Part shown: positions 12,043 to 46,443 of the stretch, one piece after another
Layout of the letters: each line of letters begins with the position of its first letter
Numbering within the stretch: the stretch's first letter is position 1
NCBI GenBank assembly: GCA_947505205.1
Contig: CANNKD010000005.1
Coordinates: forward strand, 1 to 51,304
Source of the DNA: Bacteroidota bacterium
Lineage (GTDB): Bacteria; Bacteroidota; Bacteroidia; Bacteroidales; F082
Length of the DNA stretch: 51,304 nt
Direction: 5' to 3'
Translations under genes and position numbers: made by a program
Notes under the pieces: generated by a model
Databases searched by the model: none
What the model was told of the DNA's origin: nothing
The model's input: only the letters and a program-made list of their open reading frames with translations

Positions 12043-13659
12043 ATGAAAAAAATCCATCTCATCGGATTATCACTTTTAAGTGCAATTTTATTAAGTCTGG
12101 CCTGGCCTTCAAATGGCTTTGCGCCATTGATATTTATCGCCTGGGTACCCTTGCTTTTTGTGCAGGATTCTATTGGAAGTTTGGCGCTGAAAGTGAAGAA
12201 ACCTTCTGTTTTTTGGATCACCTATTTAGGTTTACTCGTTTGGAACATACTGACAACCTGGTGGGTAAGTAATTCAACCGTGGTGGGTGGCGTGGCAGCC
12301 ATTGTGCTGAACACATTGTTTATGTCGATCACTTTCTGGCTTTATCACTTTTCGAGAAAGAAGATTTTTAAGAATATAGGCGGTGAATTTTTACTGATTT
12401 TCTTTTGGCTAAGTTGGGAATTTCTGCATTTAAACTGGGACTTGAACTGGCCCTGGCTCAATTTGGGTCACGTTTTTGTTTCGCAACATACATGGATCCA
12501 ATGGTATGAGTTTACGGGTTCTGTTGGCGGAACAGTTTGGGTGTTGGTGATGAATATTCTTGCTTTCAGAGCAGTGAAATATGCTTTGAATCTGTCTGAA
12601 AACAGAAAACAGTTTTATATCGCAAGTTCTTTATTCATAGCACTTTGGATTGTGCCAGTAGCGATTTCATTACAAATGTACACATCATATCAGGAAACAG
12701 GAACGGAGACAGAAATTGTAGTCGTACAACCCAATTTCGATCCTTTTTCTGAACAATATGAATTGGCTCCGGCAGAAATTATCGGCAGAAATATCGCTAT
12801 GGCAGAATCGGCCATGACACCTAATACGGAGTTTATTCTCAGTCCGGAATCAGCTATCCAGGAAGATATCTGGGAAGAAAGACTGAGTGCGTCACAAGGG
12901 CTTAATCTGGTACAACAATTTGTAAATCAGCACCCTCATGCAGCCTATCTGATTGGTGCAAGCACATTTAGTATCGTGCCTAAAGGAAAGGAAACAGATC
13001 CGGCGGCACGTAAATTTCTGGCTTCTGAAAAGCGGTATTATGCCTATAACACAGCGTTTTTTGTCGATACAACCAGAAAACTCGATCATTATCACAAATC
13101 TAAACTTACACCGGGTGTCGAAATGATGCCTTCGTGGTGGTTCTTAAAACCATTGAGAACTTATGCTATTGACCTTGGTGGCACTTTCGGCACGCTTAAA
13201 ATGGATGATGAGCGAAAAGTTTTCAGTAAACCCAATTCTTTGGTAAAAGTCGCTCCATTAATCTGTTACGAATCGGTATATGGCGAATTTGTTACCGGAT
13301 TTATTAAAAATGGCGCAAACATCATTTTTATTATAACCAACGATGGTTGGTGGGGAAATTCGCCTGGTCACCGGCAGCATTTTGATTTTTCCGTGTTGCG
13401 TGCAATCGAAACACGAAGGTCGGTTGCGCGATCGGCAAACACCGGTATTTCAGCATTCGTGGATCAACGTGGTGATGTTTTTCAAAAAACACCTTATTGG
13501 GAAAAAGCCATTATCCGTCAGAAATTGCGCATCAACGACCGCTTGACTTTCTATGTGAAACATGGTGATTATCTTTCAAGAATTGCCGTATATCTGGCCG
13601 TATTTGCCTTTGCAGCAGCTCTGGTGAAAAAAATTCTAGACCGTAAAAAGGCAGCATAG
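12043..13659 (+). CDS. lnt: Apolipoprotein N-acyltransferase (first of two paralogues)
   Basis: This 538-residue membrane protein adds the third acyl chain to lipoproteins in the inner membrane. Six or so N-terminal helices (about 1-210, including SLAWPSNGFAPLIFIAW) lead into a C-terminal nitrilase-like domain. The catalytic triad is intact: E269 (SPES), K352 (YHKSKLTPGVE) and C408 (LICYES). An unrelated-looking stretch of about 15 residues with FLASEKRYY lies between E269 and K352, within family variation. The dus gene starts 5 bases after its stop, so they are co-transcribed. A second intact Lnt is encoded at 38900-40504. Confidence 0.93.
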   Translation: MKKIHLIGLSLLSAILLSLAWPSNGFAPLIFIAWVPLLFVQDSIGSLALKVKKPSVFWITYLGLLVWNILTTWWVSNSTVVGGVAAIVLNTLFMSITFWLYHFSRKKIFKNIGGEFLLIFFWLSWEFLHLNWDLNWPWLNLGHVFVSQHTWIQWYEFTGSVGGTVWVLVMNILAFRAVKYALNLSENRKQFYIASSLFIALWIVPVAISLQMYTSYQETGTETEIVVVQPNFDPFSEQYELAPAEIIGRNIAMAESAMTPNTEFILSPESAIQEDIWEERLSASQGLNLVQQFVNQHPHAAYLIGASTFSIVPKGKETDPAARKFLASEKRYYAYNTAFFVDTTRKLDHYHKSKLTPGVEMMPSWWFLKPLRTYAIDLGGTFGTLKMDDERKVFSKPNSLVKVAPLICYESVYGEFVTGFIKNGANIIFIITNDGWWGNSPGHRQHFDFSVLRAIETRRSVARSANTGISAFVDQRGDVFQKTPYWEKAIIRQKLRINDRLTFYVKHGDYLSRIAVYLAVFAFAAALVKKILDRKKAA

Positions 13660-32599: not shown

Positions 32600-33511
32600 A
32601 TGACCGAAAAAATAATTGAAGTTCAGCACCTTTCAAAGCATTTTGGTAAAACCATTGCTGTACAAGATGTCAGTTTTGATGTTTTTCGGGGAGATGTTTT
32701 TGGTTTTTTGGGTCCAAATGGAGCCGGGAAAAGTACTACAATCAGAGCCATGCTTTCATTGATATCTCCAACTTCGGGCTCGATAAAATTATTTGGTAAA
32801 GAGTTTCGGTCGAATCGGAAATTCATTCTTTCGAAAATAGGCTGTATCATCGAAAAACCCGATTTCTATCAGTACCTGTCTGCCGAGAGGAACCTCGAAA
32901 TTTTTGCCCGCATTTCAGGCGTAGCAGTTTCTAAAAGTAGAATTCATGAAATGATTGAATTCGTGGGACTTAGAGGCCGTGAAAAGGATAAAGTAGGTCA
33001 TTTTTCGCATGGTATGAAACAGCGACTCGGTATCGCCCAAACGATATTACACGATCCCGATCTGATTATTCTGGATGAACCAAATACCGGCCTTGATCCA
33101 CAAGGAAGCCTCGATATTCGTAATCTGATTCTTCAGCTTCGTAATGAGCGTAATAAAACCATCGTTCTTTCTTCACACATCCTTTCCGAAATAGAAATCA
33201 TTGCCAGCCGCATGCTAATCATCGCCGATGGCAAGTCCATCGTACAGGGAAACGTATCTGAATTACTTAATAAACAAGAGCTTATCGTAACGATTGAAGT
33301 TGATAATCCGGTATTGGCAGTTCAAATAATCAATGGCAATCTGGCAGATGCAATTATTGGAAATGATGGACAAAATGAATTACGCCTACGTATAGCCCAT
33401 GATACCATTCCTGTTGTTAATCAATGGCTTACGGAAAATAATGTGAAAGTTTATAGCATTGAAACAAAACGAAAATTAGAAGATTATTTTTTAAAACTGG
33501 TGAATAACTGA
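32600..33511 (+). CDS. ABC transporter ATP-binding protein
   Basis: The protein starts MTEKIIEVQHLSKHFG at 32600 and has 303 residues; the frame is open further upstream, but that region is pseudogene and promoter. Walker A is GPNGAGKST (about 38-46), the signature is SHGMKQRLG, Walker B LIILDEP and the H-loop SSHILSE. The C-terminal 80 residues form the extra domain common in ABC-2 export ATPases. The permease start overlaps its stop (TGATG). With the permease and the LolA-like gene it forms a three-gene operon. Confidence 0.93.
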   Translation: MTEKIIEVQHLSKHFGKTIAVQDVSFDVFRGDVFGFLGPNGAGKSTTIRAMLSLISPTSGSIKLFGKEFRSNRKFILSKIGCIIEKPDFYQYLSAERNLEIFARISGVAVSKSRIHEMIEFVGLRGREKDKVGHFSHGMKQRLGIAQTILHDPDLIILDEPNTGLDPQGSLDIRNLILQLRNERNKTIVLSSHILSEIEIIASRMLIIADGKSIVQGNVSELLNKQELIVTIEVDNPVLAVQIINGNLADAIIGNDGQNELRLRIAHDTIPVVNQWLTENNVKVYSIETKRKLEDYFLKLVNN

Positions 33512-34353
33512 TGTTCTGGAAAAGTACCTATAACGAGTGCATCAAGATTGTGGCAAAACCACGGTCTTATATAGGTATGGCTGCTATCACCGCTCTTGTT
33601 GGCGTTATTCTGTTTGCCATGTTGGTCGATGGACATAAATATGTCTCAATGATTACTTCTTCTTTTGAGCAAACATTTGCCTTTAAAGGAAATCTGCTCA
33701 ACGGATATTTCATGGCTTATATTGTACTACAGATGCTCATCATTCATGTTCCACTTTTGATTGCCTTGGTAACAGGCGATCTTGTGTCGGGTGAAGCTTC
33801 AGCCGGCACATTGCGCATGTTAGTAAGTAAGCCGATTTCGCGTTCTGAGATCCTGCTTTCGAAATTTTTGGCCGGAAATATTTATACCCTGACCATTTTG
33901 ATCTGGCTTGGAATTTTGGCACTTGGCGTTGGAAATCTGCTTTTCGGTCCCGGCGATTTGATCATTTTCAAGGCGGAAGGACTTGTTATTCTGCCCGGTG
34001 ATGACGTACTTTGGCGGTTTTTCTCCGGATTTATTGTAGCTTATTTAGCACTGGTTACCGTATCAACCTTATCCATAACACTCTCGTGCTTTACCGATAA
34101 TTCCATTGGACCCATTGTTACGACCATGGCAATCATCATTTTATTCACCATTATTGGAAATCTGGATGTTCAGGTTTTCGATTCTGTCAGGCCATTTCTT
34201 TTTACAACGCACATGGTGGCCTGGAGAAGTTTTTTCGATGATCCAATTCGTGAATATGAAATTGTAAAGGCAGTTTTGGTGCTTTTAACCCATATAATTG
34301 TGCTGCTTGGTATTGCACTTTATAAATTTAACAAAAAGGATATTTTGTCATGA
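33511..34353 (+). CDS. ABC-2-type transporter permease
   Basis: This 280-residue inner-membrane protein has about six helices: near 20-40, 65-90, 125-147, 165-190, 205-225 and 250-272. The cytoplasmic coupling region GDLVSGEASAGTLRMLVSKPISR is typical of ABC-2 permeases of the NosY/CcmB-like group. It pairs with the ATPase encoded just upstream. Substrate is unknown. Translational overlap with both neighbours (one base with the ATPase stop, four with the next gene) indicates a tightly coupled set. Confidence 0.9.
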   Translation: MFWKSTYNECIKIVAKPRSYIGMAAITALVGVILFAMLVDGHKYVSMITSSFEQTFAFKGNLLNGYFMAYIVLQMLIIHVPLLIALVTGDLVSGEASAGTLRMLVSKPISRSEILLSKFLAGNIYTLTILIWLGILALGVGNLLFGPGDLIIFKAEGLVILPGDDVLWRFFSGFIVAYLALVTVSTLSITLSCFTDNSIGPIVTTMAIIILFTIIGNLDVQVFDSVRPFLFTTHMVAWRSFFDDPIREYEIVKAVLVLLTHIIVLLGIALYKFNKKDILS

Positions 34354-35063
34354 AAGCGCAGCTAACGTTATTAAAATTTACTTTCTTAGCAGCTTTCATG
34401 CTGATTTTGACGCAATTGCATGCTCAGGAAAATCCCAATCAGTTGCTGGTTGGTGTGCGTGAAAAATTAATGAAAGTGAGTGATTATTCGGTGGAGGTAA
34501 CTATTAAAGCCGAAATTCCCCTTATAAAAATTCTTCCGGTAAAAGCAAAGATATACTTCAAACAGCCTGATAAATTGAAATTAGTCTCGAAAAGCATAGC
34601 GATTTTACCCAAGCAAGGTTTTGGTGATTATCCGAATATCATTGCAGATTCAAATTCGTATAATGCCTTTTCTTCAGGTAATGAAACTATTGGCAATTTA
34701 ACTACCCAGATGATTAACCTGATTCCGATTTCAGATACAGGCGACCTGATTTTAGCAAAATTTTGGATTGATACTCATAATTACCTCATTATCAAATCAC
34801 AACTAAGTTCCAGAACAAATGGAACGATGACAGTTCAATATCACTATGGCGAATTTTCCGGGTTTGGATTGCCCGACAACATCGTTTTTAATGTCGACAC
34901 TAAAAAATTCAAGATTCCCAAAGTGCTAACTTCCGATCCGTATGCTGACGATAAAGAGCAAAAGCCAAATACCAAAACCTCAAATAAAGGAATCATTGAG
35001 ATTAATTTATATAATTATGATATTAATGCCGGCCTTGATGACTCCTTTTTTAAGAAGGAATAG
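34350..35063 (+). CDS. LolA-like exported protein
   Basis: This 237-residue protein has a signal peptide ending LHAQ at about residue 25. The mature part (LLVGVREKLMKVSDYSVEVTI, then KIYFKQPDKLKLVSK) follows the fold of LolA/LppX-type lipoprotein or lipid carriers: an N-terminal helix, then a half-barrel whose strands include FWIDTHNYLIIKSQL. It is coupled by a 4-base overlap to an ABC-2 permease. This suggests a periplasmic carrier or sensor for the exported, possibly lipophilic, substrate. The classic LolA role is not claimed. Confidence 0.72.
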   Translation: MKAQLTLLKFTFLAAFMLILTQLHAQENPNQLLVGVREKLMKVSDYSVEVTIKAEIPLIKILPVKAKIYFKQPDKLKLVSKSIAILPKQGFGDYPNIIADSNSYNAFSSGNETIGNLTTQMINLIPISDTGDLILAKFWIDTHNYLIIKSQLSSRTNGTMTVQYHYGEFSGFGLPDNIVFNVDTKKFKIPKVLTSDPYADDKEQKPNTKTSNKGIIEINLYNYDINAGLDDSFFKKE

Positions 35064-35232: not shown

Positions 35233-35266
35233 TTGGCACGGTGATTGTTGTATGGCATGCAACAAT
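35233..35266 (+). promoter_or_regulatory. Sigma-54 (-24/-12) promoter with overlapping inverted repeat
   Basis: TTGGCACG-GTGA-TTGTT (35233-35249) has the GG and GT dinucleotides exactly 10 bases apart, as sigma-54 promoters require. Transcription should start near 35260, giving a leader of about 60 bases. ATTGTTG (35244-35250) and CAACAAT (35260-35266) form a perfect 7-bp inverted repeat over the -12 element and start site, a possible operator or 5' stem. The AT-rich 170 bases upstream (35064-35232) include an imperfect dyad near 35130-35152 that could bind an activator. Confidence 0.72.
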
Positions 35267-35321
35267 GAAAATATTCGTTGAAATTAATTAATAACACTTA
35301 TTTATCTAAAAAATCAAAAAA

Positions 35322-35927
35322 ATGAAAAAAAACCTGATGTTAACCATGGCTGCTTTCGCTGTTTTGACACTTATGTTCACCAGCTGCGCCAAACCACCTG
35401 AAATGGAAGTTACCAACGCTAAAGCTGCTATCGAAGCTGCTAAAGCTGCTGAAGCAGAACGTTATGTTGCTCCACAGTTCAAAGCCGTTACCGATTCTTT
35501 GAATGTTGCTTTAACTGAAATTGAAACACAAAATTCAAAATTCGCTCTTTTCAGAAGCTACAAAAAAGCTACTGCTACTTTGGCTAACACTTTGACTTTA
35601 GCTAACACCGTTAAAGAAAACGCTGCTATCCGCAAAGAAGAAGTAAAACAAGAAGCTCAGAATACTTTGGCTGCTACAACTACTTTAGTTGCTGAAGTTA
35701 AAGAACTTATCACCAAAGCCCCTAAAGGAAAAGAAGGCAAAGAAGCTCTTGAAGCAATCAATAGCGACTTAGCTTTAGTTGAAGCATCTTTAGCTGAAGT
35801 TTCTACCTTAATCAACAATGGTGATTACCTCACAGCTGTTGACAAAGTTAAAGCTGCTAACGATAAAGCTGCATCATTGAAAACAGAACTTGAAGAAGCT
35901 ATTGCTAAAAAAAGCATGAAAAAATAA
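35322..35927 (+). CDS. Helical DUF4398-like lipoprotein with C-terminal lysine
   Basis: This 201-residue lipoprotein has C22 in the lipobox TSC followed by AKPPEME. The mature protein is almost wholly helical, rich in Ala, Glu, Lys and Thr, with the DUF4398 pattern (EAAKAAEAERYVAPQ ... QNSKFALFRSYKKA). It ends AIAKKSMKK, so the last residue is lysine, as in Braun's lipoprotein. Repeated use of few codons (GCT, AAA, GAA) suggests high expression. A sigma-54 promoter precedes it, and a strong terminator separates it from the L,D-transpeptidase genes. No surface-export signal is obvious after the cysteine, so it probably faces the periplasm. Confidence 0.85.
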   Translation: MKKNLMLTMAAFAVLTLMFTSCAKPPEMEVTNAKAAIEAAKAAEAERYVAPQFKAVTDSLNVALTEIETQNSKFALFRSYKKATATLANTLTLANTVKENAAIRKEEVKQEAQNTLAATTTLVAEVKELITKAPKGKEGKEALEAINSDLALVEASLAEVSTLINNGDYLTAVDKVKAANDKAASLKTELEEAIAKKSMKK

Positions 35928-36009
35928 TTTTGCTAACTTCGTCCCATGAAAAAGACTAATTTTTTAATGGGTATGATGATAACAAATAACTTTATTTAGT
36001 TGTTTATCT

Positions 36010-36046
36010 AAAGACCTCGGTTCAGCAATAGCTAACTGAGGTCTTT
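36010..36046 (+). terminator. Terminator between lipoprotein and L,D-transpeptidase genes
   Basis: AAAGACCTCGGTT (36010-36022) pairs with AACTGAGGTCTTT (36034-36046), 13 pairs with one G-U, around an 11-base loop. The run of T at the end of the stem continues into AATAATT. It would make the lipoprotein transcript the major product, with read-through into the transpeptidases. Confidence 0.85.
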
Positions 36047-36074
36047 AATAATTATAAAACAGCCTTACAATAAA

Positions 36075-37196
36075 ATGGGAAAAACAGTTAAAATAATCAA
36101 ACGTACTTTCATCGGGATTCTGCTCGTTAGCGTATCAACGGTTGTCATTTTTGGGATTCTTTTGCTCCTTTCACCCAATCCGCCCATTGAATCATTAAAT
36201 ATTGCTCAGGCAGAAGTAGGGCGGGCAAAAGATGTTGAGGCACAAAAATATGCCAAACCAACGATTGAAGCAGCCGAGGATCTATTGGCACAAGCACAGT
36301 TTGAATGGAAGCTTCAAAACCAAAAATATTCTTTTTTGCGTGATTATGGTAAGATGATCAAACTTACTAAAGATGCCACTGAAAAGGCGAAACAAGCTTT
36401 TGAAAAATCAGTTTCATTGAGAAGCACCATGCAGGTCGAATTGGGTGCAAAACTTAAAGAAGTTGACGAACAGCTAAATCATTTTGATCAAAACTATGCG
36501 GATCTTCCCTTAAAGGGAACAACCCGACAAAATTATACAACGGCGCGTTTACGCTATGTTGAATCGAAGGAAGCTTATGAAAGAGGTGCCTACAAAGATG
36601 TTGGTTTCAATCTGGATGTCGCAAGTCAATTGATTTCACGATCGGTAAAGGATGCGCATAACTACCTTTCAAACTACTTCGAAAACCTTGGAAAATGGCG
36701 TCGATGGGCTGATGAAACGGTTTCATGGTCAAGCCGAAGCAATGCATCGGCAATTATTGTTGATAAATTTGCCCATAAGATATATGTATATCAGGACGGC
36801 AAACTGAAAAAGGAATTTTCTGCAGAATTGGGTCCCAACTGGATTGGAGCCAAACAATATCGCGGAGATAAAGCTACTCCGGAAGGAAAATATCATATCA
36901 CCAAGAAAAAGACAAGCAAATACACGGGCTATTACAAGGCTTTGTTGATCAATTATCCTAATGATGAAGATATACAAAGATATTCGATTGGTGTTAAAAA
37001 TGGAAATATCCCACGCAGAGGAATAGGAAATCTCATCGAGATTCATGGTGATGGCGGTCGTGGTATCAACTGGACGGATGGTTGCGTAGCCTTGACAAAT
37101 AACGATATTGATAAATTGTTCGATTGCGTAGGCGTGGGAACGCCCGTAACTATCGTGGGATCGTTACGCAGTCTGAAGGAAATAAACGGGTTCTAG
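36075..37196 (+). CDS. L,D-transpeptidase with N-terminal DUF4398-like domain
   Basis: This 373-residue protein has an N-terminal membrane anchor (about 11-32). Residues 38-110 (AKDVEAQKYAKPTIEAAEDLL ... QNQKYSFLRDYGK, in pieces) align with the mature start of the upstream lipoprotein. A second helical stretch leads to the YkuD catalytic domain (about 220-365). The active site reads IEIHGDGGRG ... TDGCVAL, with C337 as nucleophile and DGC in place of the usual HGC. It should form or exchange 3-3 peptidoglycan cross-links, or attach protein to the wall. It follows the lipoprotein gene by 147 bases across a terminator. Confidence 0.9.
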   Translation: MGKTVKIIKRTFIGILLVSVSTVVIFGILLLLSPNPPIESLNIAQAEVGRAKDVEAQKYAKPTIEAAEDLLAQAQFEWKLQNQKYSFLRDYGKMIKLTKDATEKAKQAFEKSVSLRSTMQVELGAKLKEVDEQLNHFDQNYADLPLKGTTRQNYTTARLRYVESKEAYERGAYKDVGFNLDVASQLISRSVKDAHNYLSNYFENLGKWRRWADETVSWSSRSNASAIIVDKFAHKIYVYQDGKLKKEFSAELGPNWIGAKQYRGDKATPEGKYHITKKKTSKYTGYYKALLINYPNDEDIQRYSIGVKNGNIPRRGIGNLIEIHGDGGRGINWTDGCVALTNNDIDKLFDCVGVGTPVTIVGSLRSLKEINGF

Positions 37197-37218
37197 TTTT
37201 AACTTTTCGAGATAAAAA

Positions 37219-37953
37219 ATGAGAGAAAGTAATTTATATCAAGACGAAGAAACAAAGGTGCTGAGGAATCGGTCGCTTAGCGGCAAACGCATTTTTTGGA
37301 CTTTTATCCTTGCAATTATTCTGTCTATCGGCATTATTATTCCAATGGCGGAAAACTTTTATACTTTACAAGGTTTCGTGAATAGATTTTTACCTCAGAA
37401 GTCGTTAAATTACACTGCAGGAAGAATAGGAGTGGATAAACTTAAAGAGTATAAAGCAGGCCTGGTTAAGGAGAATGCCAAACTGAGTAATAGTCTGGAA
37501 AATTTTATTCCAAAACAGAATTATCTGATAATCAACACTTCTGGAAATGATTTCGTCTTGATGAACAAGCAGGAAGTCATTCGTAAAGGAAAATGTTCTA
37601 CCGGAAGTTATACGATGCTTAAAGGTAAAGACGAGAAACAATGGGTTTTTAAAACGCCACGTGGGATGCTCAAGATTTTAAAGAAAATTAAGGATCCAGT
37701 ATGGAAAAAACCAGATTGGGCTTTCATTGAAGAAGGCTTGCCTGTTCCATCTTCAAATCATCCATCTCGTTACGAAACCGGAACCTTAGGCGATTACTCA
37801 TTGCATCTTGGCGATGGCTATATGATTCATGGAACACTTTATAAAAGATTTCTTGGAATGCCTGTCACGCATGGTTGTATTCGAATGGGTGATGAAGATT
37901 TAGAAACGGTATTCAACGCCCTGCCAATGGGATCAAAAGTATATATCTATTAA
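37219..37953 (+). CDS. L,D-transpeptidase (YkuD family), second copy
   Basis: This 244-residue protein has one membrane helix (about 25-45) and then a canonical YkuD domain (about 95-244). The catalytic segment is THGCIRMG with C220 and H218, and the upstream histidine is in YMIHGTL. It lacks the DUF4398-like region of its neighbour. The start lies 22 bases after the stop of the first transpeptidase gene, so both are co-transcribed. Two different YkuD enzymes in one operon suggest separate substrates, for example cross-linking versus lipoprotein attachment; that split is inference. Confidence 0.92.
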   Translation: MRESNLYQDEETKVLRNRSLSGKRIFWTFILAIILSIGIIIPMAENFYTLQGFVNRFLPQKSLNYTAGRIGVDKLKEYKAGLVKENAKLSNSLENFIPKQNYLIINTSGNDFVLMNKQEVIRKGKCSTGSYTMLKGKDEKQWVFKTPRGMLKILKKIKDPVWKKPDWAFIEEGLPVPSSNHPSRYETGTLGDYSLHLGDGYMIHGTLYKRFLGMPVTHGCIRMGDEDLETVFNALPMGSKVYIY

Positions 37954-37962
37954 GAGTAAGCA

Positions 37963-38829
37963 ATGAATTCATTAAGAAATACACAAGATTCAAACACTGA
38001 AAATATGACTCAGGTCGGAAAACGTAAAAACTTTTTTATCAGTTTGTTTACTAACATCAAACATATTTTCCTTTTTATATTATTTCTCTCGATACTTCCT
38101 GCATTGTTTTTGGTTTATGCAGGCATAATTCCAATCAGCAGTTATAAACCCGCCGCAGAAATAGGAGGGGGGAAGCCGATGGTTTCAGTTTCCATTGATG
38201 CATCTCAAAAAGAAGATGTAAGCAAAATTATCCTGCTTGAAAAAGAGAATAACTTTGAAAAAAACAGTTTATCTCTGGCTGATCAGGATTCTATTTATCT
38301 GGTAATCAATGTTCCATCGAAAAGTATCGCCATTGAAATCAAAGGTGTTCAGGTGCGGACAGCCACAATTTTAAATGTCATTCCAGATCAAAAACTTGCT
38401 TTGATTTCACATGAACATTTGACTCCCTGGTTATCAGATCCTTTTGTTCTGAAAAAATATTTGGGAACCATTCCGAAAATTCCAATTGTTGTAAAAGAAG
38501 CCCCAAAAGACACCATCGAAGCTCAACTTCGTTCGAGTAAACCACTTCCTCCAGATTCTACCATTGTTTTTACAAGTTTGTTTTTCGATAGGAACTTAAT
38601 CCTTGAGATTAACCAGAATGGAGAACCAAATGAACGCGAACTACCTATCGTTAAAGCTTATCTGGATAAGAAGACCGCCTATTCACCCGATGAAAAAACA
38701 ATCGAAAAGATATTAAATCCTGGTGCTACGGATCATCCTGTAACAATAAAACTAATCGTTTCGGCGGCAGATGCAAGGGCAATTTACCGCGCTATCCCTT
38801 CAAAAACGCGTCTGGTATTGAAATTGTAA
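37963..38829 (+). CDS. Membrane-anchored protein of unknown function in the L,D-transpeptidase operon
   Basis: This 288-residue protein has a cytoplasmic N-terminus of about 30 residues and one membrane helix (about 32-54, HIFLFILFLSILPALFLVYAG). A periplasmic domain follows. SIYLVINVPSKSIAIEIKGVQVR resembles, in pieces, the first strands of YkuD domains, but the protein has no cysteine at all and so cannot be a YkuD enzyme. It starts 9 bases after the second transpeptidase gene. A role as an inactive partner or regulator of the transpeptidases is a reasonable guess; no function is known to me. Confidence 0.75.
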   Translation: MNSLRNTQDSNTENMTQVGKRKNFFISLFTNIKHIFLFILFLSILPALFLVYAGIIPISSYKPAAEIGGGKPMVSVSIDASQKEDVSKIILLEKENNFEKNSLSLADQDSIYLVINVPSKSIAIEIKGVQVRTATILNVIPDQKLALISHEHLTPWLSDPFVLKKYLGTIPKIPIVVKEAPKDTIEAQLRSSKPLPPDSTIVFTSLFFDRNLILEINQNGEPNERELPIVKAYLDKKTAYSPDEKTIEKILNPGATDHPVTIKLIVSAADARAIYRAIPSKTRLVLKL

Positions 38830-38876
38830 AACAGGAAGACTCAAGTGTAATTTGCATAGGTAATGACAAATTAAGC

Positions 38877-38884
38877 TAAATTTG
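38877..38884 (+). promoter_or_regulatory. -7 promoter box of the second lnt gene
   Basis: TAAATTTG fits TAnnTTTG and ends 15 bases before the ATG at 38900; TTTG at 38851 is 22 bases upstream. The gene may therefore be expressed both from this promoter and by read-through from the transpeptidase operon. Confidence 0.5.
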
Positions 38885-38899
38885 GTTTTTTCCTATTCA

Positions 38900-40504
38900 A
38901 TGATTAAAATTACCGGACTACCCAAACAAATCCTTTTTGGAACCACGAGTGCTTTGTTGCTTTTTTTAGCCTGGCCTCCAAACGGTGTCACTTTTCTCAT
39001 ATTTGTTGCTTTTATTCCATTATTCATCCTGGGAACAGATAGGGAAATAGGCCTAACAAACTATTTTATTGTCTGTTACGTTACTTTTTTTGTCTTTCAT
39101 TTGCTGGCTGCCGGATGGATGTATAGCTCCACTTTTGTTGGAACTTTGATTGCCCATTTGGTTCATTCTTTTTTATTTGCGCTGGTATTTCTATTGTGGG
39201 TTGCTTCGCGAAATGTTTTACGAAAACCGGGTATTTTCCTGCTACTTTCATTATGGTTATCGATGGAATACCTGCAATCTCATTGGGATTTAGCCTGGCC
39301 CTGGTTTACCTTGGGAAATGGATTGGCAGAAAAAACAAGCTGGATTCAATGGTTTTCATTCACCGGAGTTTCCGGTGGCACTTTGTGGGTTATACTTATT
39401 AATTGGTTGATATTTAAAATAATAACAACAATTATTGAAGTTAAATGGAAGCAATTCGGGATTTTTTTTGGAATGTTGATACTTATCATTTTAGGCCCTA
39501 TACTTCTTTCCGGCACATTACTTCAAGAAGAAAAGCAGTTTGAAAAGATTAAAATTGCATTGGTTCAGCCAAATATCAATCCACGAACAGAGAAGTTTTT
39601 TGGCTTAAATGAACAGGAGCAACTCAATCGGACATTGAAATTAATAGCCGATCACGATTTAACGGAAGTAAAGCTTGTGGTGTTCCCGGAAACTTTCCTT
39701 ACCAATCCCATCGACGAAGACAGCCTTGCTTTTTCGTCATCGTTGCTACAAATCGTCAGGCAATTGTCAAATTATCGCCCCATCTCAATTTTAGTCGGCG
39801 CATTTACGAAAATTCATTCATCCAAAGCATCTTTCGATATCGATGTAATTTTGAAAACAGGCAATCCGCACATTTTATACAACAGTTCAATTTTAATAAA
39901 TGATTATGAAAATCGCATCTATCACAAAATGAATTTGTTACCACTGGTTGAAAAGCAACCATTTTTGGGCATTTTAAAACCTTTCAAATATTTTATAGAG
40001 AAATCAGGTGCTTATTTTGGATCATATGGAACGCACAATGAACAATTTGACTTTGTATTAAACGATGGAACAGCTATTGCGCCAATCATTTGTTTCGAAT
40101 CTGTTTTCAGTGAGTCAACAGCAGAACTTGTCCGAAAAACGAAAGCGAATATGATTGTTTTAATCACAAATGATGGCTGGTGGAGTAGTGATGTGGGTTA
40201 TAAGCAGCATTTGGCTTATGCAAAATTGCGTTGTATCGAAACCGGAAACTGGATGGCACGCTGTGCAAATACTGGAGTTTCAGCAGTAATTGATAATCAT
40301 GGTGAAATCAGAACGCAAAGTGATTATGGTAAGGCAGAGATTTTGATTTCAGAAATTGGATTGAATCGTAGTAAAAATAGTTTTTACGTTGAAAATGGAG
40401 ATATAATTGGTAAAACCTCAGTGATTTTATTAGGAATGATTGTCTGTCTGTTGATGTACAATTCTGGAACAATATATAGTAACAACAGAAAGCAAAATCA
40501 ATGA
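38900..40504 (+). CDS. lnt: Apolipoprotein N-acyltransferase, second paralogue
   Basis: This 534-residue protein starts at the ATG at 38900 (MIKITGLPKQ); an upstream in-frame TTG overlaps the promoter box and is less likely. It shares the layout of the Lnt at 12043: N-terminal helices with FLAWPPNGVTFLIFVAFIP, and a nitrilase domain with E264 (FPET), K343 (YHKMNLLP) and C398 (IICFES). All three catalytic residues are kept, so it should be active. It lies beside a lipoprotein/L,D-transpeptidase cluster, unlike the first copy, which is in a housekeeping operon. Its stop overlaps the convergent phosphate transporter gene by 7 bases. Confidence 0.9.
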   Translation: MIKITGLPKQILFGTTSALLLFLAWPPNGVTFLIFVAFIPLFILGTDREIGLTNYFIVCYVTFFVFHLLAAGWMYSSTFVGTLIAHLVHSFLFALVFLLWVASRNVLRKPGIFLLLSLWLSMEYLQSHWDLAWPWFTLGNGLAEKTSWIQWFSFTGVSGGTLWVILINWLIFKIITTIIEVKWKQFGIFFGMLILIILGPILLSGTLLQEEKQFEKIKIALVQPNINPRTEKFFGLNEQEQLNRTLKLIADHDLTEVKLVVFPETFLTNPIDEDSLAFSSSLLQIVRQLSNYRPISILVGAFTKIHSSKASFDIDVILKTGNPHILYNSSILINDYENRIYHKMNLLPLVEKQPFLGILKPFKYFIEKSGAYFGSYGTHNEQFDFVLNDGTAIAPIICFESVFSESTAELVRKTKANMIVLITNDGWWSSDVGYKQHLAYAKLRCIETGNWMARCANTGVSAVIDNHGEIRTQSDYGKAEILISEIGLNRSKNSFYVENGDIIGKTSVILLGMIVCLLMYNSGTIYSNNRKQNQ

Positions 40505-43089: not shown

Positions 43090-46000
43090 CTATCTCTTCT
43101 CTATTTTTAAGATTTCTGTCCTGTTGCTTCCTGAAATTTTTACAAAATAAAATCCTCCTCTGAGATCGGAGATATTTATCGTCAGACTCGTGACTTCATT
43201 TTCGATGGGAGTTGTCATCAAAACCTGGCCTGCTAAATCAATGATTGACACACGCTTGTATGAACTATCTGGTAAAGTTATGTTTAATAGATCTTTTGTG
43301 GGATTTGGGAATATATTTAACAAAAGTTCAGGATCAGTTATAATGCTTGAAGCACTATTTTTAACGGTAACATATACTAAATCACTGTCAGTATATTGAT
43401 TATCAGAAACAGTAACTGCAAAACAATACTTCCCTTCATTCAGATTCGGTACAAAAGCAATCGATTTGTCTGATTCAGTGATGACGGCCTCTGATGATCC
43501 ATACATCTGCCACCAGTTGTAAGTCAACGGATCATTATTTGGATCAGAACTTAAAATGGCTGAAATATTTACGGAATTAACAGGTAGTGTTATTGTTATA
43601 TCCGCTCCGGCATTAGCAGTTGGAGCGCTGTTAACGGATGAGGTTTCTCCGTTAATCACTTCAAACTCATACAGCGAAAAGCCATATTGGGTGCTTCTTT
43701 TGATGCAATCCAACCTGATATATCTTCCGGTTTTATTTGTATTGATTGAGAAGTAACCAATTTTTCCATCAGTAATATGTGCAATGGTTTCCCATGAAAC
43801 ACTGTCTGTGGATACCAGAATTATATATTCGGTAGCAAAAGCTGCTTCCCAGTAAAGGTTTATTTTGGTAAATGATTTTTCTGCTCCCAAATCAATAACG
43901 GCAAATTGATTATCAGCGAAAGCTGAAGACCAGCGGCTACTTTGGTTTCCATCGACCATTTTATCACCTTTTAAATCCGTACTGTTATTTTCAACGGACG
44001 AAACTACAACGGTTTTCCTGAAGGCTAAGTTATAGTCTGCCGGGTCAAGAGAGGCGTTAAATACTTCTAAATCTGATGTATTTGTGTTGTTGTCTTCCAG
44101 CCATTCATCTATTTTATTTTCGGAATCAAAATCTGCCGTAAGTGAAAAAACACCTGCTGTTGTTGAAGACCAGGTACTGTCTGAAGCAATCAATCGAACC
44201 TGACCAGGGAAAATTGTATCCGTAATATACTGACTGGATGCGATATTGCTTTCATTGCTTACCGAATAATTAATTTTATATTGACCGGGGAATAATGGCA
44301 AAGTCCCCAGATTTTTTACCATTGCATAAAAACTTATTTTTTGATTTTGCAAAGGAAAATGAGGCATTGTATATACACGGGTGATCTTTAAATCGGGTTT
44401 CGATTGTCCATCGGTAAAAGTCAGTGATGTTGATAAAGGTAAATTATCGCTCGAACCTCCAATTTTAATCGTAAATGTACCGGATTCTATTTCATAGGAT
44501 TTGTTCGTTTCATTCCAATAATAGAAATCTTCAGCATTTAGAACAAAGGAAACTGTTTTCTTTTCGCCAGCAGCAAGTGATATTCTTTTGAAACCTTTCA
44601 ACTCTTTTATAGGCATATACACTGTTGAAACATTATCTGAAACATATAGTTGAACCACTTCTTCCCCCGATTTAATTCCAGTGTTTTCAATATCCGCGGT
44701 AACGGTTACCGGTGCTCCGGCAGTTGCATTGGCTGGGTTAATTGTGATATTTGAATAGGAAAATGTTGTATAGCTTAATCCAAATCCAAAGGCGTATTCC
44801 GGCACAATGCCTCTCTGATCGAACCATCTGTAGCCACAACCATAATCGTTGTCGTAATTGTCATCCCATGGTGGAAGCTGATTATCTGTTTTTGGCATGG
44901 TAACCGGCATATGGCCTGCCGGATTATAATCGCCAAAAATTACATCGGCAATAGCATTGCCGGCTTCCTGACCGGCATAAAATGAATAGATCAGGCCTTT
45001 AATATTCGGCAAACTTGTATTAACGCTGCAAACTCCGCCACTTTGAAGTACAACAATAATATTTGGATTGACAGCGGCCAGTTCATTAATAAGTTCCAGT
45101 TGTTTGCCGGGTAATACGGAAGAATTGTTTTTTCGGTCATTTCCAATATCATAAGCTTCTCCTTCCTGTGTTTCGTCCAGTCCACCGGCAAAAATGACAA
45201 TGTCAGATTCGGCTGCAATTTTTTTTGCTGCCGCATAGCCACTTATATTTGAGCTATTTATACTGCAACCTAAAGCATAAGTAACTCTTGTTGTTCCTAT
45301 TTTGTTTTCAATTCCCTGACGAATATTTACAGAATAGGGTGGCGAAGTTTCACTGCTTCCAAAACAATTGAGATTACCTTTTAATGCATTTGGTCCGATG
45401 ATGGCTATACTTTTACCATTTTTGGATAAAGGAAGAATATCGTTTTCGTTTTTCAGTAGGATAATTGATTTTCGGGCTCCATCTAAAGCGATTTTGACGT
45501 TCTCAGGTGTGTTGGCTTCTTCAATGTTACCGGAAGGAAAATAATCTGTTAATCCAGCCAGTATTTTTGTGCGTAAAACATTGCGCACCGCTTCATTAAT
45601 CACCTCGATGCTAACACTTCCGCTGGCAACCAATCCCGGAAGGTCATTTTTATAATTATCACTTCCCATACACAAATCGGTTCCGGCCGATACAGCTTTT
45701 TTCGCATCCCAAACGGCGCCCCAGTCCGACACAACATAAAAAGGAAATCCCCAGTAATTCCGTAGGTTTTGTTTGAGACTCTGTTCACTTTCGGCAGCTT
45801 TATCTCCATTAATCAGGTTATAGGCTGACATCAGACTCATGGCACCGCTTTCCTGCATCGCATAACGGAAATTATAACCATAATTATCCATCAGGTTGCG
45901 TTCCGAAACAATTTCGTTGCATGTATGCCTGTAAGCTTGTTTACTCTCACCCATAAAATGTTTGAGTGTTGCAATAACAGGCTGAGTCTGAATGCCTGTG

Positions 46001-46443
46001 GCGACTGCAGCTCCAACATGACCAGCGAGATAGGTATCTTCGCCAGCACTTTCGGCGGTTCGGCCGGCACGTGGATCACGTGTTAAATCGATGCAAGGCC
46101 CCAATTGCTGCATTTTACCATAAGCATGAAATTCTCGGCCCATGGCTTTTCCAAGTTGTTCCAGGTAATCGACGTCCCAGGTTGATGCCATGGCTATACC
46201 GGTTGGGAATGCGGTTGCATTTTCAAATCTCACCCCATGCGGACCATCATCCATAATAAATCCCGGGATGTTTAGCCGGCTATTAGTTGGTGTGGTCATG
46301 AAACCATTGTTGTAGAGTTGTTCCAGTTTTTCAGAAACTGTCATTGCATTGATTAATGAGTCAATACGACTTTCAAGTAAATTTTGAGAAAAACAGGTAA
46401 ATGAGAATAATAACCCGCTTATCAACAACAAAATCCGTCTCAT
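43090..46443 (-). CDS. Secreted GH3 glycosidase with accessory domains and T9SS sorting signal
   Basis: This 1117-residue protein has a signal peptide ending TCFSQ. The GH3 N-terminal barrel (about 25-330) has TRDPRAGRTAES, KHFMGE and the nucleophile D240 in VVSDWGAV. The GH3 C-terminal domain runs about 340-590, then comes an FnIII-like domain (about 600-690; TADIENTGIKSGEEVVQLYVSD in part). A CARDB-like domain (about 705-815), a discoidin/F5-8C carbohydrate-binding domain (about 835-965; RWSSAFADNQFAVIDLG), a PKD/Ig-like domain (about 970-1045) and a type A T9SS sorting domain (last 75 residues; FPNPTKD) follow. It should release glucose or xylose from plant-type oligosaccharides at the cell surface. 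Sugar specificity is not readable. Confidence 0.93.
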   Translation of the reverse strand: MRRILLLISGLLFSFTCFSQNLLESRIDSLINAMTVSEKLEQLYNNGFMTTPTNSRLNIPGFIMDDGPHGVRFENATAFPTGIAMASTWDVDYLEQLGKAMGREFHAYGKMQQLGPCIDLTRDPRAGRTAESAGEDTYLAGHVGAAVATGIQTQPVIATLKHFMGESKQAYRHTCNEIVSERNLMDNYGYNFRYAMQESGAMSLMSAYNLINGDKAAESEQSLKQNLRNYWGFPFYVVSDWGAVWDAKKAVSAGTDLCMGSDNYKNDLPGLVASGSVSIEVINEAVRNVLRTKILAGLTDYFPSGNIEEANTPENVKIALDGARKSIILLKNENDILPLSKNGKSIAIIGPNALKGNLNCFGSSETSPPYSVNIRQGIENKIGTTRVTYALGCSINSSNISGYAAAKKIAAESDIVIFAGGLDETQEGEAYDIGNDRKNNSSVLPGKQLELINELAAVNPNIIVVLQSGGVCSVNTSLPNIKGLIYSFYAGQEAGNAIADVIFGDYNPAGHMPVTMPKTDNQLPPWDDNYDNDYGCGYRWFDQRGIVPEYAFGFGLSYTTFSYSNITINPANATAGAPVTVTADIENTGIKSGEEVVQLYVSDNVSTVYMPIKELKGFKRISLAAGEKKTVSFVLNAEDFYYWNETNKSYEIESGTFTIKIGGSSDNLPLSTSLTFTDGQSKPDLKITRVYTMPHFPLQNQKISFYAMVKNLGTLPLFPGQYKINYSVSNESNIASSQYITDTIFPGQVRLIASDSTWSSTTAGVFSLTADFDSENKIDEWLEDNNTNTSDLEVFNASLDPADYNLAFRKTVVVSSVENNSTDLKGDKMVDGNQSSRWSSAFADNQFAVIDLGAEKSFTKINLYWEAAFATEYIILVSTDSVSWETIAHITDGKIGYFSINTNKTGRYIRLDCIKRSTQYGFSLYEFEVINGETSSVNSAPTANAGADITITLPVNSVNISAILSSDPNNDPLTYNWWQMYGSSEAVITESDKSIAFVPNLNEGKYCFAVTVSDNQYTDSDLVYVTVKNSASSIITDPELLLNIFPNPTKDLLNITLPDSSYKRVSIIDLAGQVLMTTPIENEVTSLTINISDLRGGFYFVKISGSNRTEILKIEKR

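Follow-up and report, generated by a model that had tools for sequence, protein, structure and literature searches.

We describe here a four-gene unit in a 51,304-nt window (the whole stretch of DNA analysed), read on the forward strand of contig CANNKD010000005.1 from a Bacteroidota bacterium (Bacteroidales; F082; assembly GCA_947505205.1). The unit encodes a helical lipoprotein, two YkuD-domain proteins (LdtA and LdtB) and a membrane protein (tm3), and we tentatively read it as a module for the reversible covalent attachment of the outer membrane to peptidoglycan. A preliminary description of this DNA had proposed a Braun-type tether: both YkuD enzymes would attach the lipoprotein through its C-terminal lysine, and Lnt was counted in the set. 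Its gene inventory, namely a helical lipoprotein ending in Lys, two YkuD proteins, a Cys-free membrane protein and a full Lnt, was correct by open reading frames (ORFs) and profile matches. The features are as follows.

35322-35927, + strand: lipoprotein, ORF of 201 aa with lipobox Cys22, Lys as the last residue and 19% Ala.
36009-36047, + strand: hairpin between lipoprotein and ldtA, RNA fold -23.6 kcal/mol, without a T-run.
36075-37196, + strand: LdtA, with an N-terminal hydrophobic segment, a helical stalk and a C-terminal YkuD domain (PF03734, E 3.2e-19).
37219-37953, + strand: LdtB, with an N-terminal hydrophobic segment and a YkuD domain (PF03734, E 1.4e-18).
37963-38829, + strand: tm3, a Cys-free membrane protein with a hydrophobic segment, a helix and, in its model, a degenerate YkuD fold.
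38882-40504, + strand: Lnt, full (TIGR00546, 232 bits against a cut-off of 132.9), judged to lie outside the module.

The conserved unit consists of the lipoprotein, LdtA, LdtB and tm3. In a sample of 198 genomes of the order, the window genome included, the LdtA protein as query recovered full-length LdtA from 25 genomes and matched the YkuD domain only in 13 further ones. Profiles of the lipoprotein and of tm3 (at most 16 and 13 first-look candidates scored per genome, respectively) each recovered the same 25 genomes; two sets of 25 genomes would coincide by chance with a probability of 3e-32, a figure to be read with the relatedness of these genomes, which are hence not independent. The lipoprotein lay just upstream of LdtA in the stretches of all 24 relatives (cut by the contig end in L053), and LdtB and tm3 lay downstream in 23 of them; in the exception, G099, only 0.7 kb of contig follows LdtA, and tm3 stands at the start of another contig. 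No Lnt match was present near the cassette on either strand in these 24 stretches, of which 21 extend at least 5.7 kb past LdtA and three 0.7-2.9 kb, whereas the window Lnt starts 1.7 kb downstream of LdtA. Lnt was therefore rejected as a member of the module.

The gene order lipoprotein-LdtA-LdtB(-tm3) is kept across phyla. Of the best 80 loci kept from a scan of named genomes, 60 (L058-L117), with record titles including Acidobacteria, Zixibacteria, Gemmatimonadota and Caldithrix, were examined further, and the remaining 20 (L118-L137) match essentially the YkuD domain only. A phylum sample of 395 genomes added eight further full-length LdtA cases. Cultured carriers include Roseivirga seohaensis and Odoribacter laneus. 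In the resulting 68 loci, the lipoprotein and LdtB were each found in 66. No lipoprotein was found at L110, LdtA there beginning at the contig edge, or at L061; the latter was rejected as a lipoprotein-less genome, a copy being present on another of its contigs. LdtB was missing at L106 and L116, in both of which LdtA reaches the end of the available stretch. Wherever both ORFs were closed, LdtB lay on the LdtA strand (86/86 loci) and, in 85 of these 86, overlapped LdtA or stood at most 84 nt from it, the spacing in L102 being about 2.1 kb. The tm3 gene was found in 47 of the 68 loci, and five of the misses have fewer than 180 bases after LdtB. Outside Bacteroidota, 11 of 15 loci have an ORF on the LdtB side that matches a tm3 profile built from 68 sequences (E <= 1e-4); since L101 and L112 were in the profile, the fair count is 9 of 13, the misses being L108, L113, L115 and L117.

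The two YkuD enzymes carry different catalytic signatures. The NF040599 model (LdtF_DpaA_YafK) matched all 25 LdtA proteins of an alignment (E <= 0.001, best 2.7e-10). Searched against the PDB, the LdtA profile found, in order, 8ikr (3.5e-9), Bd1075 (2.7e-8), Pgp2 (1.4e-7) and then Csd6, and the matched stretch of 8ikr is identical to E. coli DpaA. Bd1075, Pgp2 and Csd6 are described as L,D-carboxypeptidases (PMC10653827). As reported in PMC10653827 and PMC8263019, neither DpaA nor the L,D-carboxypeptidases have the transpeptidase Arg at catalytic Cys+2, a position taken by Ala145 in DpaA, and both rely on a Lys, K83 of DpaA and K107 of Csd6. DpaA/YafK-type enzymes have Ala or Asn at Cys+2. 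The residue at Cys+2 in 91 LdtA sequences was Ala in 88, Gly in two and Ser in one, with no Arg, and the Lys motif K...GD..TPEG.Y, aligned with E. coli DpaA K83, was present in 91/91; in the window LdtA these residues are K260 and C337-V-A339. Both signatures are common to DpaA and the L,D-carboxypeptidases. Residues specific to the L,D-carboxypeptidases in Csd6 are Tyr132 and Trp158.

LdtB showed the transpeptidase pattern HG...[ST][HQ]GC-x-R, with Arg at Cys+2, in 86/86 sequences (THGC-I-R in the window, C220 and R222). The PRK10260 and PRK10190 models, which by length we take to be those of E. coli YbiS and ErfK, matched 24/24 LdtB proteins at E <= 0.001; the window LdtB scored 35.1 and 31.7 bits, below their cut-offs of 583 and 517. 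E. coli ErfK/YbiS-type enzymes have a LysM domain, and the window LdtB gave no LysM match at E up to 1. The combination of a DpaA/carboxypeptidase signature in LdtA with a transpeptidase signature in LdtB therefore suggests a release/attach pair. By these residues LdtA looks like a releasing or trimming enzyme and LdtB like a joining enzyme, so that of the two transpeptidases named in the preliminary description LdtA appears to be a hydrolase instead.

The lipoprotein and the LdtA stalk are homologous by sequence comparison, a relation absent from the preliminary description. Residues 18-186 of the lipoprotein aligned with LdtA 29-190 in a comparison of profiles (hhalign, 98.6% probability, 160 columns), and plain BLAST gave 7e-10. 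In the 198 genomes, the lipoprotein profile at E <= 1e-6 returned 44 matches, made up of 25 lipoproteins and 19 adjacent LdtA genes. Because all 44, with at most 16 first-look candidates scored per genome, are lipoproteins or adjacent LdtA, generic coiled coils are an unlikely explanation; a shared-domain artefact from low-complexity helices was considered on the same matches. With a hydrophobic segment at its N-terminus and no lipobox Cys, LdtA seemingly carries its stalk from the inner membrane. The L099 genome (G590), outside that sample, has two extra stalk-like matches at E <= 1e-4, on contigs C7 and C22 (E 1.4e-10 and 2.2e-5).

The lysines of the lipoprotein were compared in 87 sequences. 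The last residue was K in 39, R in 22, F in eight, S in six and another residue in 12; K occurred within the last five residues in 74/87, and K or R within the last three in 83/87. Lys stood at -1 in 39/86, at -4 in 38/86 and at -6 in 32/86, and with the -4 and -6 positions nearly as common as -1, a C-terminal Lys was rejected as a conserved feature. The preliminary description itself counted a lack of conservation of this lysine among orthologues as evidence against its proposal, and the 39 of 87 therefore speak against a mechanism based on a C-terminal Lys. K137 is the only invariant lysine (87/87; K105 is next at 85), and a separate 82-row alignment left C22, P26 and K137 as the only invariant columns. 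In the window lipoprotein, K137 sits in the loop A-P-K-G-K and the C-terminal tail is basic (KKSMKK). The loop motif [AL]P.GK was found in 85/91 lipoproteins, compared with 1/91 LdtA proteins within their first 230 residues, which argues that it is not merely part of the shared fold. Internal and terminal attachment are both chemically known, since LimB is attached through an internal Lys, and a single Lys ending an Lpp-type box is necessary and sufficient for attachment (both PMC12274547); K137 and the C-tail are thus both possible attachment sites. Eleven lipoproteins (L036, L037, L068, L073, L077, L078, L079, L080, L085, L095 and L105) end in [KR]-I-[KR]-[FY] or a close variant rather than in Lys, endings that resemble a separate C-terminal signature in a lipoprotein subgroup.

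The AlphaFold2 model of the lipoprotein, built with 82 sequences, had a mean predicted local distance difference test score (pLDDT) of 94.1 and five helices (27-42, 50-71, 81-132, 137-165 and 169-200). Residues 105-193 could be matched, at 1.7 A over 88 residues, to a designed antiparallel three-helix bundle, a fold that should bring the C-terminus and the 133-136 loop to the same end. A Cys at column 131 or 133 and a Cys at column 199 occurred together in 5/90 lipoproteins and singly in none, a pattern such as a loop-tail disulfide would give. The carriers are L097, L100, L107, L114 and L115 (an uncultured bacterium and four records with Acidobacteria or Terriglobia in the title); they are probably related, and the pair may represent one event. 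By the model and this co-occurring Cys pair, the K137 loop lies beside the basic C-tail. Over its whole length, the model was best matched by EzrA (Z 11.9) and BB0323 (Z 11.4; Foldseek probability 0.97, E 0.38), the latter described as a member of the spectrin repeats family (PMC12758692). If the fold is spectrin-like, the lipid end would lie opposite the end bearing K137 and the C-tail, about 78 A away along helix 81-132 (estimated at 1.5 A/residue). The lipoprotein profile gave weak helical matches only among PDB sequences.

The membrane protein tm3 is probably a catalytically dead YkuD protein, apparently related to LdtB; comparison of its model with known structures and the larger alignment told more here than its sequence did. 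The AlphaFold2 model (mean pLDDT 81.4) matched YkuD-family chains in all 50 rows listed by VIA-align (Z 5.9-8.2), in most cases over residues 105-288. One row lies above Z 8, the value under which, by the tool's own warning, a match may reflect a common arrangement. The best Foldseek match had E 5.7e-3 and probability 0.99. With the larger alignments, hhalign gave tm3 67.5% global (237 columns) and 46.4% local with LdtB and 6.2% local with LdtA, and the earlier local comparison gave 30% and 7%, respectively. The HG...GC motif was present in none of 68 tm3 sequences, 27 of which are without any Cys. PF03734 gave no match in 24 members at E <= 0.1, a threshold at which 12 Pfam families, none of them YkuD, matched one member each, and a search of the tm3 sequence against the PDB returned nothing useful.

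The lipoprotein is probably abundant, as the preliminary description had it: its codon adaptation of 0.799 is the highest of the 39 window ORFs taken as genes and falls in the range of 24 recognised ribosomal-protein genes (0.633-0.811), and none of 2000 synonymous simulations reached it (maximum 0.766). The terminator proposed to keep the lipoprotein in excess of the following genes found partial support. The lipoprotein-ldtA intergene does fold strongly (-42.1 compared with -20.1 +/- 2.9 kcal/mol in 300 shuffles), and folding at z <= -3 occurred in 42 of the 65 intergenes of at least 45 nt (86 loci; 21 intergenes shorter). However, the hairpin has no T-run and a terminator scan found 0 sites, so a canonical intrinsic terminator was rejected; the hairpin is possibly an attenuator or a 3'-end stabiliser. 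Regarding location, the optimal surface-export signal in Capnocytophaga is given as C-X-K-(D/E)2-X (PMC5080379), and none of the 85 lipoproteins whose Cys could be aligned carries D/E at +4 and +5 together. Because surface-export signals vary among Bacteroidota, this is weak evidence that the lipoprotein faces the periplasm.

The proposed mechanism, to which we give slightly less than even odds and which we favour over its rivals, builds on the computed parts, homologies, catalytic signatures, phyletic linkage and adjacency of the K137 loop and C-tail; for the rest, we infer that the abundant lipoprotein would be lipid-anchored in the outer membrane, face the periplasm and form a helical rod, whose far end, opposite the lipid, would present the K137 loop lysine and the Lys/Arg-rich C-terminus. 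LdtB, of the transpeptidase type, would join one of those lysines covalently to wall diaminopimelate, and LdtA, of the DpaA type and held on a homologous rod from the inner membrane, would hydrolyse the lipoprotein-wall link. The dead YkuD protein tm3 might act as a regulatory or assembly partner. The core idea of a wall tether, already present in the preliminary description, thus gains from the phyletic pattern, the gene order, the LdtA and LdtB signatures, the codon adaptation and the lack of the surface-export signal; its Lpp-specific form loses ground.

Several points weigh against this mechanism. No lipoprotein-wall adduct is known, conservation of the C-terminal Lys is lacking, and in four of the 87 lipoproteins the last eight residues contain no K. 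K137 could be structural, and its loop motif is altered, with a less sure alignment, in L097, L100, L102, L107, L114 and L115 (an uncultured bacterium and five records with Acidobacteria or Terriglobia in the title). Helical bundles can reach scores of the EzrA/BB0323 level by chance, and the placing of the lipid end opposite K137 is derived from helix lengths together with these spectrin-like matches. The window LdtA scores 29 bits against a DpaA equivalog cut-off of 365, and the close E-values of DpaA, Bd1075 and Pgp2 leave LdtA not cleanly separated from the L,D-carboxypeptidases. Finally, the two stalk-like matches of the L099 genome outside the cassette are possibly rod paralogues.

The main rival to covalent attachment, which we regard as doubtful, is that the lipoprotein is a non-covalent regulator: an outer-membrane rod would cross the wall, pair with the LdtA rod and control the place or time at which LdtA and LdtB trim or cross-link the wall, with K137 and the basic tail binding enzyme or wall. 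LpoA and LpoB, outer-membrane lipoprotein activators of other wall enzymes, provide an analogy. The homologous rods, the matching phyletic pattern of the cassette genes and the unconserved C-terminal Lys agree with such a role, and an invariant loop residue would suit an interaction site; however, codon adaptation in the ribosomal range fits a structural protein better, and Lpp is known to be attached and released by just such a pairing of a transpeptidase with a DpaA-type enzyme. An elaboration of the attachment module, unlikely in all its parts, has the same spectrin-like rod reaching out from both membranes, LdtB attaching K137 rather than a C-terminal lysine covalently to the wall, the inner-membrane copy carrying the enzyme that cuts the link, and the dead YkuD paralogue gating or sensing the exchange. 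If true, this would be an ancient system, spread over several phyla, that parallels Lpp but uses another attachment site and has its own release arm built in.

Wall trimming, which we consider quite improbable, would make LdtA an L,D-carboxypeptidase and have LdtB form 3-3 cross-links or exchange D-amino acids, with the lipoprotein only a scaffold and cell shape or wall maturation as the output. The LdtA profile does find Bd1075, Pgp2 and Csd6 after DpaA, the first two with close E-values, and the Ala and Lys signatures are common to both enzyme kinds, but the best PDB match is, by a small margin, the DpaA stretch of 8ikr, and a dedicated, highly codon-adapted lipoprotein would be left unexplained. 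The Braun-type tether as first proposed is the least probable reading: the window lipoprotein and 38 of the 86 others do end in Lys and LdtB has the transpeptidase signature, but 48 of 87 lipoproteins do not end in Lys, the transpeptidase Arg is absent in 91/91 LdtA, and no Lnt stands near the cassette in 24 relatives.

Compared with known systems, the cassette resembles that of E. coli Lpp, a 58-aa single helix served by the enzymes LdtA/B/C (ErfK, YbiS, YcfS) and DpaA, in having a helical, probably abundant lipoprotein with a basic C-terminus and YkuD enzymes of the transpeptidase and DpaA types. It differs in the modelled rod of about 180 residues and five long helices (27-200) in place of a single helix, in the unconserved C-terminal Lys, and in the gathering into one cassette, found in other phyla, of a DpaA-like enzyme on a lipoprotein-homologous stalk and an added dead YkuD protein. 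The Pfam family of Lpp (PF04728, number from PMC8263019) was absent from the eight families matching the window lipoprotein at E up to 1 and from the 25 listed of 62 families matching 24 lipoprotein members; with the rod of about 200 aa in the model and the C-terminal counts above, the Lpp-specific reading is not supported.

According to PMC8263019, only about 3% of genomes were found to have Lpp-like proteins, all in a subset of Gammaproteobacteria, whereas DpaA-like YkuD proteins occur in Bacteroidetes and Acidobacteria lacking Lpp, their substrate being left open there; a strain without six LDTs is also mentioned. LdtA shares with these proteins the Ala at Cys+2 and the phyla, but differs in being tied to one lipoprotein. 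LimB, beta-barrel and Omp25 outer-membrane proteins are attached to the wall in Coxiella, Legionella and Brucella through sites that are not a C-terminal Lys, and every attaching enzyme identified for them is a YkuD enzyme (PMC12729407); they are different proteins, and the available part of that paper mentions for them no dedicated cassette with a release-type and a dead YkuD protein. DUF4398 (PF14346) gave weak matches in 11/24 lipoproteins at E <= 0.1 (best 3.5e-6) and in 9/25 LdtA at E <= 0.01; five distant lipoproteins scanned singly gave one such match, in L101 (19.5 bits against a curated cut-off of 27.9). EzrA and the BB0323 N-terminal domain have a helical-bundle fold similar to that of the lipoprotein, a match too unspecific to claim membership.

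A description of the cassette was not found in the open-licence PMC literature searched, and the main text of a 2025 review of L,D-transpeptidases contains no word beginning "bacteroid". Both chemical steps, YkuD-mediated attachment of outer-membrane proteins and DpaA-type release, would be of a kind already known, and the gene module would be a new variation on them; the lipoprotein-LdtA homology, the DpaA-like signature of LdtA and the degenerate YkuD fold of tm3 go beyond the preliminary description. The cassette offers a candidate substrate, a candidate attaching enzyme and a candidate releasing enzyme in one gene set, and makes it testable what fastens the outer membrane where Lpp is lacking and what the DpaA-like enzymes cut in Bacteroidetes and Acidobacteria. 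In a system of this sort, the dead YkuD protein would be a novel component.

Outside the module, the window holds two full-length Lnt genes of one genome, at 12043-13659 and 38882-40504, 25 kb apart and 32% identical; the preliminary description was right to call the latter a paralogue. Glu, Lys and Cys motif residues, which we take to be the Lnt triad, are kept in both copies. Directly upstream of the cassette, at 32600-35063, lie an ABC transporter pair and a weakly LolA-like protein (PF17131, E 0.0046), the latter without a match in the stretches of the 24 relatives (22 with at least 3 kb upstream). At 43090-46443, the window encodes a large protein of glycosyl hydrolase family 3 that carries a C-terminal sorting domain of the Por secretion system (PF18962).

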